Shown here: one piece after another, positions 28,361 to 32,668 of the stretch
Layout: each line of letters starts with the position of its first letter
Numbering within the stretch: position 1 is the first letter of the stretch
Source: Aerococcus urinaehominis
GTDB taxonomy: Bacteria; Bacillota; Bacilli; Lactobacillales; Aerococcaceae
Direction: 5' to 3'
Assembly: GCF_001543245.1 (NCBI RefSeq)
Contig: NZ_CP014163.1
Location: forward strand, 372,001-436,000
Length of the DNA stretch: 64,000 nucleotides
Position numbers and translations under genes: made by a program
The notes under the pieces: model-generated
Seen by the model: only the letters and a program-made list of their open reading frames with translations
Told to the model about the DNA's origin: nothing
Database searches by the model: none

Positions 28361-28401
28361 AAAAAAATCCGGTCCTGCGAATTCGGCAGACCGGATTTTT
28401 T
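28361..28401 (+). terminator. Terminator of the CofE-like gene, split from its partner by ISL3
   Basis: AAATCCGGTC and GACCGGATTT arms, with A7 before and T7 after. The last 8 bases (GATTTTTT) are the ISL3 target duplication. Before insertion this hairpin would also have ended the minus-strand gene at 31526. Confidence 0.9.
28394..28401. repeat. ISL3 target-site duplication, left copy
   Basis: GATTTTTT, repeated exactly at 31516-31523 on the other side of the element. Confidence 0.88.
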
Positions 28402-28416
28402 GGTTCTATACTTTTT

Positions 28417-28453
28417 GGTGTTGGTGAGTAAAAACTCACTGACACCTTTTTTT
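28417..28453 (+). terminator. Terminator at the ISL3 left end
   Basis: Arms GGTGT..GTGAGT and ACTCAC..ACACC around AAAA, followed by T7. It lies before the transposase gene and would stop host transcription from entering it. Confidence 0.75.
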
Positions 28454-29352
28454 ATTTGGAATCACAAAAAGCCAGTGAATTCTTTATAATTAAGTTGTCA
28501 GACAAAACTACAAAGGAGAATTCACATGGCTCAAAATGATTGTATCAAAAACCTATTAAGTATTACAGACGAAAATATTAAATTAGAGGACAAGGTAACG
28601 ACTAAAAAGATTAAACAAGTGACTCATAAAGTAATCTACGGCACACTAACTTATCAACCAGACAGCTGTCCGAATTGCCTCCATAAGGAGGCTGACCAAG
28701 CTAGTGTTATTAAGCATGGTTATAAACTATCGCGCATTTTAATAGGTGAATTCAACACACAACCAATCTCTTTAGTATTAAAAAAACAGCGATTTTTCTG
28801 TAAAAATTGCCAAATTACGTTTACAGCCTCTTCTAATCTAGTTGCTAAAAATTGCTTTATTAGTCGCCAAATCAAGTGTTTAGCGATACAAGAATTATCA
28901 GAGTCGCAAAGTATGTCCTTAATCGCTAAAAAACTTAATATTTCAAATTCTACGGTTATTCGTCTGCTTGAATCGACTGCTAAACAATTCAAACAAAGTT
29001 ACCGGCAACTACCTAGGCATTTATCTATTGATGAGTTTAAATCTGTTAAAAATGTCTCAGGCGCTATGTCTTGCATCCTAGTGGATGCAGCTAATCATCG
29101 TTTATTTGATATATTAGAAGATCGGACGCAAGCTTATTTAAGAGATTATTTTATGCGTTTCCCTCTGGAAAAGAGAAAGCTAGTTGAAACGATTACCATG
29201 GATATGTACTCACCTTATTATGATTTTTTACAACAAATCTTTCCAAATGCGAAAATTATTATTGACCGATTCCATATTGTTCAACTACTGAATCAGACTT
29301 TGAATAGCCAACGGATTCTTGTGATGAATCAACAACCTAAGCAATCAACACA

Positions 29353-29360
29353 CTATCGGA
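29353..29360. repeat. IS256-family target-site duplication, left copy
   Basis: CTATCGGA, repeated exactly at 30686-30693. Confidence 0.9.
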
Positions 29361-30685
29361 GATTAAGTCCATATAATTGTGTAAAAAGAAAAACCATAAT
29401 AATCTTTTTTGGTTACAATGTAATTGGCTAAAACACATTGAAAGGAAGATTATTATGGCTCAACTAAATATTACCCTAAACTTAGAAGAAATTACAGAGG
29501 CAGTTCTAAACAGTGATATGGATCAGATGATGAAGTCCCTAACTGTAACCATCTTTAATGCCTATATGCAAGCAGAGCGTGAGGAATTTATTAATGCTAA
29601 GCGCTATGAGCGCACAGATGACCGGAAAGATTATCGTAATGGCTCCTATAAAAGAAACTTTAAAACAAAGGTAGGGACTGTTGAACTGGATGTCCCTCGG
29701 ACACGATCAGGAGAATTTGATACCAAGCTATTCGATAAATATCAACGTATGGACAAGGCCTTTGTGGCTGTTTTAACCGAAATGTATATTAATGGGGTCT
29801 CAACACGCCGTATTAAGAAGGTTGTTGAAACACTCTGTGGCGAAGGTGTTTCTAAATCATTTGTCTCTTCAGTAAATAAAAACTTGGACCCTGCTGTTTT
29901 CGAATTTAAAGGGCGTTCCCTAACACATACGAATTTTCGATATGTTTATGTCGATGCCATGTATATTAAAGTTCGCGAAAACCATCGTTCTGTCTCTAAA
30001 GGTGTTTATATTGCTCAGGGTATTAACGATGATAATCGTCGCGAAATTATCGGCTTTATGATTGCTGATAATGAATCAGAAGAAAACTGGAAGAACTTCT
30101 TCCTTGATTTAAAGGCCAGAGGCCTAACTAAACCAACATTAATTATATCTGACGCCCACAAGGGACTAAAATCAGCGATTAGTAATCAATTTTTAGGCAC
30201 TACCTGGCAACGGTGTACGGTTCATTTTCTACGTAATATTTTAGCTCATTTTCCAAAAAAGGATTGCAGTCATGAGAGAAGTCTTCTAAAGAGAATATTT
30301 AATGCTGATAGTCAACAAAGAGCGCGAGAGTTAAAATTTGAATTTGTAGAATACGTTAGTGGCAATGAGAAATATGACAAAGCTGTTAATACGCTAGAGG
30401 AAGGCTTCGAAGATGCTATCCCATACTTATTAGAACCCACACCTTATCGCGTTTCACTGAAAACAACTAACAGTCTAGAAAGGCTAAATCGAGAAATTAG
30501 AAGAAGAGAGAAAGTTGTCGGCCTCTTTCCTAATATAGAGGCTGCGGAGCGACTTATAGGAAGTGTATTGCTTGATTTGCATGAATATTGGGAGACATGT
30601 CCTCATAAATTCTTTAATAACATAGTCTAAATATTTATACCCACCAATTACATTCTATAATTTACACAAGATTGTGGACTTGACA
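29361..30685 (+). mobile_element. IS256-family insertion sequence, complete, 1325 bp
   Basis: Left end GATTAAGTCCATATAATTG and right end (minus strand) TGTCAAGTCCACAATCTTG share AAGTCCA and TTGTGTAAA, giving imperfect inverted repeats of about 25 bp. The 8-bp duplication CTATCGGA is exact. Only one ORF is present and it is intact, so the element may be active. It inserted into the ISL3 transposase after ISL3 had arrived. Confidence 0.93.
29455..30630 (+). CDS. IS256-family (mutator type) transposase
   Basis: It is a 391-residue DDE transposase. The catalytic acids are in YVDAMYIKVRE (D about 180), IISDAHKGLKSA (D about 246) and NSLERLNREIRRRE (E about 350). The HFLRNIL and WQRCTVHF segments typical of IS256 sit between them. 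The ATG at 29455 has AAGGAAG. No frameshift or stop is seen. An open frame extends upstream into the left end but without a ribosome binding site. Confidence 0.95.
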   Translation: MAQLNITLNLEEITEAVLNSDMDQMMKSLTVTIFNAYMQAEREEFINAKRYERTDDRKDYRNGSYKRNFKTKVGTVELDVPRTRSGEFDTKLFDKYQRMDKAFVAVLTEMYINGVSTRRIKKVVETLCGEGVSKSFVSSVNKNLDPAVFEFKGRSLTHTNFRYVYVDAMYIKVRENHRSVSKGVYIAQGINDDNRREIIGFMIADNESEENWKNFFLDLKARGLTKPTLIISDAHKGLKSAISNQFLGTTWQRCTVHFLRNILAHFPKKDCSHERSLLKRIFNADSQQRARELKFEFVEYVSGNEKYDKAVNTLEEGFEDAIPYLLEPTPYRVSLKTTNSLERLNREIRRREKVVGLFPNIEAAERLIGSVLLDLHEYWETCPHKFFNNIV

Positions 30686-31229
30686 CTATCGGAAATTGAA
30701 ACAGTTATGGAAGCTGATTTTAAAGAACCAAGAAGCACTGAATAGTGTTAATTACCGCACACATCGCTTATTTGATGGCCTTATAACAGAAGTAGGTATA
30801 GTTGAATTTATGCTTAATATCGACAGTAAATTTAGAAAAGTCTATGATGTCGTGAACGAGCTCAAATATCACCTTAAAACAGGGAATATCAATGCTTTCA
30901 TACATACAATTAGTCGCAATAAGAGCCAACGGCTCCCAAAAAAATTGAGAAAAACGATGAATACTCTGCTCAAATACTTACCTGCTATTATCAATAGCTT
31001 TCGTTATACACTTTCCAATGGGCCAATTGAGGGTATGAATAATAAAATCAAGAATATTAAGCGATCCGGTTTTGGGTACCGCAATTTTTATCATTTAAGG
31101 GCACGGGCTTTTCTTTCTTTTAGATCCTATGAGGCAAAAAAGGAAAGTAAAACTACTGTAAAGAGAAAGATTGAAAAGTTAGATGCAGAATCTAGGGCCC
31201 TATGTGCTTAATTGATAAAATATTTCTTT

Positions 31230-31438
31230 GCTAGAGTCGGAGGGGAATGGGCATCTGTTAGCCATGTTGAGCACGCCAAAGAATTACAAGCTGTGACAAT
31301 CCTAGAGCCGTAGAAGCAACGCGACGTACGGATATAGCGATTGACTACAGCTTGTTTGAGGCTGGCGAGGTGAGAGACCTTGGCTCGAACCGGTGCCATG
31401 GCTGTTGAACAGATGACCAATTCTCTGGAGACTCTAGC
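31230..31438 (+). ncRNA. Large folded sequence inside the ISL3 right end, candidate structured RNA
   Basis: Between the transposase stop and the right inverted repeat, complementary segments nest in order. P0 is GCTAGAGTC 31230-31238 with GACTCTAGC 31430-31438. P1 is CATCTGTT 31252-31259 with AACAGATG 31408-31415. P2 is AGCCATG 31260-31266 with CATGGCT 31397-31403. P3 is CGCCA 31274-31278 with TGGCG 31363-31367. P4 is ACAAGCTGT 31286-31294 with ACAGCTTGT 31347-31355. P5 is CAATC 31297-31301 with GATTG 31339-31343. Inside are CTA/TAG and CCGTA/TACGG. A side hairpin AGGT-GAGAG-ACCT is at 31368-31380. The P0 3' strand can also pair with GGCTAGA (31443-31449). A terminator-like hairpin follows. 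Expression and function are unknown. Confidence 0.5.
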
Positions 31439-31450
31439 CTATGGCTAGAA

Positions 31451-31488
31451 AAATAAAAAAGACCGAAGTCAAAACTTCGATCTTTAAT
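31451..31488. terminator. Terminator hairpin at the ISL3 right end
   Basis: AAAGA-C-CGAAGT/ACTTCG-A-TCTTT with loop CAAA. On the minus strand it is followed by T6, so it can end transcripts of the Gate-domain gene that now runs into the element. On the plus strand it follows the folded RNA region. Confidence 0.7.
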
Positions 31489-31515
31489 ATCACCAACACT
31501 ATTTGACAAAGAGCC

Positions 31516-31523
31516 GATTTTTT
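31516..31523. repeat. ISL3 target-site duplication, right copy
   Basis: GATTTTTT, identical to 28394-28401. The stop of the Gate-domain gene lies only 2 bases beyond. Confidence 0.88.
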
Positions 31524-31525
31524 TA

Positions 31526-32668
31526 TCAAACTAATATATATATAAAATGAGCTGCTACGCCTGCTACGAGGCCTCCAATAGTATGGCTAATAAGGGCATA
31601 GCCAGTCGCTTCTTTTGTACCTAATGCATCCATCATAGCAATATGAGTTGAGAGGTAACCCGACCAGCACATACACATGGCTGTAAATACTGCAAGATCA
31701 TTACCATCTGCTAGGCCCTTAGTTACAAAATCAGCTGCAACACCTACTGCAGCACCGGCAGCGCCTAAAGCAGTAATTGGGACGGCAATGGCTTCAGGAT
31801 TTGAAAAACCAAATAGGGGCACTAAAATAAAAGAAAATTTTTCTCCTAACCAAGGTAAAAAGGCCACCCCTTGCCCTAAACCACCGTCATAAAGACCGCC
31901 AGGACCAGGACCATTAGTTAATAACATAACCATAGTACAGACGACAAGTACCCCGGGAATAATAGCCATTCCCATCTCTACGCCATTCATACCACCTTCC
32001 AACAAAGACGATAGTAGGCGTGAACCTGTCCCACCTTCACGAATGACACGCAAATGAGGGGGAATTTCTTTGCTTTGTTTAGTAGTAACATCAGCTTCAG
32101 TGCCATACAAACGCTTAGTAAAAAATAACATCATCCGCACACTCACTACTGATCCAACCACAGCCCCCAGATTACCAATTAAGGCAGACTGGACAGCGCC
32201 ATCAATTGGTAGCCCAATCATAGTTGCGGTGACAATCAATCCCATCCCAAATGAGGTACCGATATTAGTTAAGGCTGGTAGTTGGTACTGTTTAAAATAG
32301 CGCTTAAAATTATCCTCTTTAGCAAGTGTTAGAATTGCAGGGTTATCAGACATATAGCAATTCAGAATACCCAGAGAGGAAGCACCGGGCATATCATAAA
32401 TAGGTTTAATAACTTTTGATAAAACTAAATCAATTAAGGATACAAAACCGAACTCAGAAAATAAGGAGGATAGCGCCCCGGTAACGACAGAAATAGCCAT
32501 AATATAAAAAACCGTATTAATTAATAAGTCATAGGCAGTAGCCATAATAGTTGATAACATATTTACCGTGCCCATAACTGAACCGATACTGATAAAGATA
32601 CCAAAAAAGATGATCGTAAATAGAATTGTTTCGCGGCCAACAGCTGGCTTATATCTCACATACTTCAT
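31526..32668 (-). CDS. Gate-domain (nucleoside-recognition-like) membrane protein
   Basis: It is a multi-pass membrane protein of 380 residues with about 9-10 helices. The pattern resembles Gate-domain proteins of the SpmA/YjiH kind: GASSLGILNCYMSDNPAILTLAKE, then GVEMGMAIIPGVLVVCTMVML and GFSNPEAIAVPITALGAAG. Transport function is inferred; the substrate is unknown. The ATG at 32668 follows GAAGGGAAAA, with a TG-extended TATAAT about 30 bases upstream. Its natural downstream terminator was displaced 3.1 kb by the ISL3 insertion, and the hairpin in the IS right end probably replaces it. Confidence 0.7.
   Translation of the reverse strand: MKYVRYKPAVGRETILFTIIFFGIFISIGSVMGTVNMLSTIMATAYDLLINTVFYIMAISVVTGALSSLFSEFGFVSLIDLVLSKVIKPIYDMPGASSLGILNCYMSDNPAILTLAKEDNFKRYFKQYQLPALTNIGTSFGMGLIVTATMIGLPIDGAVQSALIGNLGAVVGSVVSVRMMLFFTKRLYGTEADVTTKQSKEIPPHLRVIREGGTGSRLLSSLLEGGMNGVEMGMAIIPGVLVVCTMVMLLTNGPGPGGLYDGGLGQGVAFLPWLGEKFSFILVPLFGFSNPEAIAVPITALGAAGAAVGVAADFVTKGLADGNDLAVFTAMCMCWSGYLSTHIAMMDALGTKEATGYALISHTIGGLVAGVAAHFIYILV

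Follow-up and report, generated by a model that had tools for sequence, protein, structure and literature searches.

Structure of the ISL3 element and of its right end

We analyzed a window of 64,000 nucleotides from Aerococcus urinaehominis (assembly GCF_001543245.1, contig NZ_CP014163.1, positions 372,001 to 436,000 of the forward strand; all coordinates below are those of the window). The window contains an insertion element of the ISL3 family, and the noncoding right end of this element holds a strongly folding segment (31212-31490) that is probably a structured RNA module, mobile and carried by ISL3 elements. A preliminary description, made from the sequence alone, had pointed out a large nested fold inside the right end and proposed that it might be an element-borne noncoding RNA or a palindromic mini-element that had landed there.

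The complete ISL3 element spans 28402-31515 and is bounded on both flanks by a perfect 8-bp target duplication, GATTTTTT (28394-28401 and 31516-31523). The left copy of the duplication lies within the T-run of a terminator-like hairpin at about 28367-28396; that is, judged by eye, the element itself was inserted in a terminator T-run. The left inverted repeat (28402-28424, plus strand) is intact and has a matching end in the intact copy L011; the right inverted repeat is at 31493-31515 (plus strand). The transposase gene, on the plus strand, is interrupted. Its first part (28526-29359; Pfam PF01610 and PF14690) and its last part with the stop codon (30696-31211; PF01610) are separated by an IS256/Mutator-type element (29360-30682, plus strand; PF00872) with ACACTATCGG as a direct repeat on either side. 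The ISL3 domain PF01610 matches both halves (E values of 1.2e-25 and 5.1e-21), and the intact element can be observed in sister copies. The absence of a target duplication around the fold, as reported in the preliminary description, is correct for the fold; the duplication encloses the whole ISL3 element.

The folded segment lies between the transposase stop and the right repeat, in a tail that is longer than usual. Among the copies in which it could be measured (some further ISL3 copies were unmeasurable), four from the same genome (L011-L014) have a tail of 304 nt and the remaining module carriers one of 340-348 nt, versus 33-288 nt in 20 ISL3 copies without the module. The earlier estimate of an extra 250 bp or so was thus roughly right. 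The stems can be read directly from the sequence, and none of 200 shuffled sequences was equally stable on either strand (plus strand, -103.2 kcal/mol and z of -6.58; minus strand, z of -8.88). Folded alone, the core (31228-31442) gave -92.8 kcal/mol and a z of -6.81. A protein-coding explanation was rejected, as there is no overlapping open reading frame of at least 80 amino acids.

The architecture that we model is a three-way junction on the plus strand, made of a stem (P1), a helix (P2), an arm (P3 and P4) with an internal loop of GAATTA and TTTGAGGC, a hairpin (P5), and a GG linker. The outer part of the 5' strand of P1 (31230-31259, of which 31230-31238 is the outermost stem) comes from the energy fold; the conserved inner part, AGCCATG (31260-31266), belongs to a helix that is 96.6% paired in 100 distinct aligned matches. 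The 3' strand of P1 (31397-31438; inner part 31397-31403, outermost part 31430-31438) is predicted by both the energy fold and the model alignment. P2 pairs GCA (31271-31273) with TGC (31394-31396) and is predicted from covariation. The arm and P5 were placed by the model alignment. The arm consists of the 5' strand of P3, CGCCA (31274-31278), the 5' side of the conserved internal loop, ending in GAATTA (31279-31286; GAATTA columns 89-99% conserved), the variable P4, which is unusually long in the window element (31287-31354), the 3' side of the loop, TTTGAGGC (31355-31362; TTTGA columns 95-99% conserved), and the 3' strand of P3 (31363-31367). P5 is GGTGAGAG-ACCTTGG-CTCGAACC (31369-31391).

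Two further hairpins that had been described are present. The 3' strand of the outermost stem can pair instead with GGCTAGA just downstream, forming an alternative hairpin on the plus strand, TCTAGCC (31433-31439)-TAT-GGCTAGA (31443-31449). By eye, we saw this alternative pairing only in copies from the same genome and from one relative, G010, so that it does not resemble a conserved switch. Farther downstream is a terminator-like hairpin (31458-31485), which has the longer stem and a T-run on the minus strand and is weaker on the plus strand.

Distribution of the module in other genomes

The 1.83-Mb genome of the window contains ten matches to the segment, nine near-complete (95-100% identical) and one partial, all within ISL3 right-end sequence. 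Because copies this similar are uninformative about function, we turned to relatives. Of 149 genomes searched with BLAST, 12 had matches, mostly to a core of approximately 30-60 bases alone, and many of the matching loci, when read, were intergenic and multicopy with differing flanks. A pattern for the core, scanned against 100 genomes, was present in 11 (96 copies in G002, 45 in G001, 16 in G011, nine in G000, and five in G003), and the reversed pattern had no matches in the same scan. In all 18 loci fetched from G011 and G003, the core directly follows a complete or broken reading frame for an ISL3 transposase. The module is placed between the transposase stop and the right repeat in three ISL3 lineages of the window's genus.

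We built two covariance models. The first, R1, was made from ten solo copies and no window sequence, and its structure was drawn up manually from the folds of single copies. R1 matched the window at 31306-31403 (E value of 1.3e-11), with the 3' half correctly placed and the 5' half falling inside the long P4 arm. R1 also recovered the ISL3 tails of G011 and G003. The second, R2, was made from all 104 matches, including the window and its sister copies in the wrong register for the long P4 arm, and it placed the whole window module (31260-31403). R1 is the only independent test, and by this test the 3' half of the window module alone is correctly placed. At an E value of at most 1e-5, R1 matched 36 of the 395 genomes sampled from the order. 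These belong to four families and to 15 of 80 genera, and one named carrier species is Atopococcus tabaci. A search of the whole class with R2, under stricter filters, had matches in 4 of 398 genomes, all of them Lactobacillales. So far, the module appears confined to this order, that of the window.

The module did not match any family in Rfam 15. There was no match at the gathering score in window positions 30600-31700, none in 20 loci save an unrelated glmS element, and nothing credible in four loci at a loose threshold (E value up to 0.5). Among plasmids, BLAST with the window segment matched one Aerococcus tenax record at seven places, covering 24% of the query. The segment had no BLAST match among phages; scanning viral contigs with a pattern turned up a single match that, by eye, is without the flanking stems.

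Several variants of the module were seen. Six solo copies in G002 (L066, L067, L071, L073, L077, and L078) are mosaics, with alternative 5' or 3' halves on a common core, as if swapped. Three loci in G011 (L047, L048, and L119) have a short form with a second hairpin in place of the P4 arm; the loop of this hairpin resembles that of P5. In Enterococcus faecium plasmids (L162 and L163, 2501-2720), the spacer next to lnu(B)/lsa(E) holds a degenerate copy, which has a right repeat like that of ISL3; of 70 matching plasmid records, 68 are from Enterococcus.

Covariation and the strand of the putative RNA

The base pairs of the module are maintained by compensatory changes. In an alignment of 55 matches, 26 of 28 pairs had double changes, with 365 doubly changed cells versus 93.5 in shuffles. 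With 104 matches (100 distinct), 29 of 31 pairs were doubly changed (639 cells versus 160.5 in shuffles), and 96.4% of the paired cells were paired, compared to 33-40% when the partner was slid. P2, which was found by comparison and is absent from the energy folds, is fully paired in 83 of 94 aligned copies (ten copies, misregistered or of the short G011 type, were left out) and uses six types of triplet: GCA/TGC, GGA/TCC, GAA/TTC, GTA/TAC, AGA/TCT, and CCA/TGG. Conservation is 89-100% at unpaired bases, namely GAATTA, TTTGA, the A preceding P5, and the GG following it. By these counts, which are not tree-aware, the module has the covarying secondary structure expected of a functional noncoding RNA, and the analysis supports conservation of structure rather than of sequence.

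The pairs also point to the strand of the putative RNA. In 87 copies (13 that were misregistered, mosaic, or of the short G011 type and four duplicates were dropped), the paired columns contained 51 G-U and 12 A-C cells. The anchored stems P3 and P5 alone had 18 G-U and two A-C, and counting once per genome and pair gave 40 versus 12 (p of 1.3e-4). Since an A-C here is a G-U on the opposite strand, the excess of G-U indicates that the RNA would be on the transposase strand. We regard this as good but not final evidence of strand, the alignment being made by the model. Together, the compensatory changes in the copies that carry the segment and the RNA-type strand bias largely bear out the early suggestion of an element-borne structured RNA.

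The module is a separable part of ISL3 elements

Related ISL3 elements differ in whether they carry the module. Copies in G011 and G003 whose transposases are 93-100% identical to each other have it (for example L048, L058, and L115-L119), whereas six copies approximately 80% identical to these carriers (L120-L125) do not, and have tails of 194-195 nt versus 340-348 nt. Five of the G011 copies, L115-L119, were missed by the core pattern; we rejected their classification as module-less because the module is present. When R2 was run on 42 loci, including ISL3 elements from other genera, these five were the only matches in the carrier position; two plasmid loci matched weakly (E value of 0.03).

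The module also makes up the bulk of small ISL3-type elements that have no transposase. Copies that we delimited in G076, G140, G098, and G126 are 258-282 bp long with ISL3-type repeats; those in G076, G140, and G098 have ISL3-like terminal repeats and lack a transposase, and there was no transposase match within the G076 loci. With ends specific to each family of copies, chosen family by family after the copies had been read, 14 of 19 delimited elements (five of them from G000) had perfect 8-bp duplications. Outside G000 the number was nine of 14, and all four full-length copies delimited in G000 had one. A strict scan for ends plus duplication among the 104 matches found only two (control mean of 0.1, largest 1), because many copies have decayed or have different ends. 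In 23 copies from G002, G001, and G014, the consensus of the right end is TCACCAGCACAATTT, which resembles the right repeat of ISL3 (TCACCAACACTATTT) in its inner part, and in many G002 copies no more than the inner half of this end is retained. One copy in G002 is missing from the same place in G001, identifying an empty site.

Because the module is absent from ISL3 elements approximately 81% identical to carriers and occurs alone in small elements, we conclude that it is an optional, separable part of ISL3. The suggestion of a mini-element that landed in the right end is therefore only partly right, in that the module is separable and small elements carry it alone. ISL3 elements may have gained the module from small elements, or the small elements may have arisen when a transposase was lost.

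Some small elements have other arrangements. L010, the partial match in the genome of the window, is an ISL3 element with an internal deletion leaving 238 bp, in which most of the module has been lost, and it has a perfect duplication. This locus (L010/L016, at about 1058 kb in the genome of the window) has both ISL3 ends, a perfect GTTTTTTT duplication, and an adjoining terminator, and is possibly a nascent miniature inverted-repeat transposable element (MITE). In G133 (L215, L216, and L111), small elements are in tandem, approximately 262 bp apart, and the pair in L111 is directly ahead of an ISL3 element.

Insertion sites and alternative explanations

Insertion points were on terminator T-runs in six of 18 cases, compared to 24 of 2980 positions drawn at random from those loci, a control not matched for T-runs or for intergenic location. 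The right end faced the 3' end of the neighboring gene in 52 of 65 analyzable solo copies, and one of the 65 was between divergent genes. (The 65 are 49 from 111 match identifiers, the others of which were without flanks, duplicates, or ISL3 carriers, plus 16 of 23.) ISL3 elements from many genomes behaved similarly: the right end faced the neighbor's 3' end in 14 of 16 elements that carry the module and in 14 of 18 that lack it (28 of 34 in all). We therefore rejected the notion that the module steers the orientation of insertion. As the bias is seen with and without the module, it is apparently a property of the transposase, which supports ISL3 transposases as the movers of the small elements. 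A further consequence is that the strand of the putative RNA usually lies opposite to the adjoining gene, and this speaks against the module being part of the 3' untranslated region of a host gene.

These sites and orientations, together with the minus-strand terminator at 31458-31485, could also be explained if the segment were a passive insulator, a strong stem and terminator that halts transcription into or out of the element. We think this fairly unlikely. A passive terminator would have no need of the conserved unpaired GAATTA, TTTGA, and GG or of a covarying P2, a scan of the small element L246 found no terminator within it, and module-less ISL3 elements share the orientation bias.

An unlikely explanation, in our view, is that the palindrome acts as DNA, as a cruciform or a single-stranded signal for transposition or replication, and makes no RNA. 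Both strands fold strongly, and the module lies inside the element ends and is retained in the small mobile copies, as this explanation would have it. However, the excess of G-U over A-C, both in all cells and per genome and pair, is not predicted by a strand-symmetric role, module-less ISL3 elements are also multicopy, and the deletion copy L010 has a perfect duplication.

We doubt still more that the module is a trans-acting RNA, regulatory or guide-like, with a role like that of the IS110 bridge RNA or the IS200/IS605 omega RNA. It has conserved loops, is borne by an element, and is kept alone at high copy number, any of which might be expected of such an RNA. The transposase of the carriers, on the other hand, is the DDE-type ISL3 enzyme, target preference looks alike with and without the module, and we noticed by eye no loop matching the ends or targets, no search for one having been made. 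Lastly, a chance palindrome or debris of unrelated repeats, for which the ISL3 copies approximately 81% identical and without the module might be cited, is most improbable given covariation across four families and recovery of the window by a model trained without it.

Comparison with known elements

The carrier has the DDE_Tnp_ISL3 transposase, the ISL3-type ends, and the 8-bp duplications of ISL3-family insertion sequences and MITEs. Unlike these, elements of the window type have a conserved, covarying putative RNA module in the tail. In the ISL3 literature on noncoding RNA, MITEs, or structure, chiefly that outside subscription papers, we found nothing comparable. Structured RNAs do occur in the noncoding parts of other insertion sequences: the bridge RNA of IS110, the omega RNA of IS200/IS605, and the RAGATH-18-derived RNA of IS607. 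The module resembles them in this respect and differs in the class of transposase and in having no guide segment that we recognized by eye. As to a partner such as an IS110 recombinase, TnpB, or IscB, the profile scan covered the carriers, in which it identified an ISL3 transposase.

MITEs of the NEMIS, RUP, and ERIC type are mainly long hairpins. They are described as small, mobile, transcribed, and robustly folding (PMC3733652). The module is likewise carried by small mobile elements with robust folds, but is predicted to be a three-way junction with conserved loops.

EFAR, classed as a MITE (PMC3733652), and Efa-1 of Enterococcus faecalis, described as 163 bp with 65 copies and a double hairpin (PMC2267715), appear to be one family. 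They are like the module in being intergenic, 160-170 bp, structured, and of high copy number. Genome G318, which we take to be E. faecalis on the basis of a ddl primer, contains in the 400 kb sampled a multicopy repeat of other sequence (L167-L186), an intergenic repeat of about 170 bp with two hairpins that is consistent with EFAR/Efa-1. R1 had no match in G318 at E values up to 10. On this basis, with the identity of G318 so assumed, we rejected the possibility that the module is EFAR.

Interpretation

Our view that the segment is probably a structured, mobile RNA module belonging to ISL3 elements is based on the following observations: its structure is conserved and covaries, it is placed in three ISL3 lineages, small copies of it have 8-bp duplications and ends like those of ISL3, and close ISL3 relatives lack it. 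Several results weigh against this view. Aligning 21 and 16 copies with plain MAFFT did not produce a consensus fold that could be used (RNAalifold energies of -2.3 and -7.3), and the alignments used for covariation (A4 and A5) were fitted to a model whose structure was set by hand in R1 and are biased towards that model. In tandem-gene settings the putative RNA strand was opposite to the neighbors in 26 of 36 and six of eight cases, so that read-through from genes would mostly yield the other strand, and promoter-like sites were absent within the module and in one small element scanned. With respect to mobility, the duplication of the copy with an empty site is imperfect (four of eight bases differ), a second site compared was unclean (195 versus about 40 bp), and in the 23 copies from G002, G001, and G014 the right end is not conserved in its outer half. 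The deletion copy L010 may imply that the whole module is not needed for movement. Finally, copies examined from other families have no transposase in the carrier position within their loci.

We infer from the pairing patterns that the module acts as RNA of the transposase strand. What it does there is a guess. One function, which we consider possible rather than probable, is that of a cis-acting domain of an mRNA. In full elements the module would most likely be a 3' untranslated domain of the transposase message, and a bound protein or the fold itself could set the stability, 3' end, or expression of that message, with the adjoining minus-strand terminator blocking transcripts that enter from a convergent neighbor gene. 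The small elements would be moved in trans by ISL3 transposases and would retain the module. More tentatively, the module might represent a novel kind of selfish RNA gene. Such a gene would spread in the form of ISL3 mini-elements, would have been taken up by full ISL3 elements, and would act either in trans or in cis via its conserved junction.

In several transposon families, structured RNAs located in the ends have proved to serve as guides and regulators. The fold described here covaries, has no match in Rfam 15, is tied to a DDE transposon family, and occurs at up to approximately 100 copies per genome with many natural variants, and the covariance model should be useful for annotating unexplained intergenic repeats in the Lactobacillales. 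If the module were a selfish RNA gene, it might, for example, bind a host protein or the transposase, or control the transposase message, and this would be a partnership between an RNA and a DNA transposon of a kind undescribed for DDE elements.
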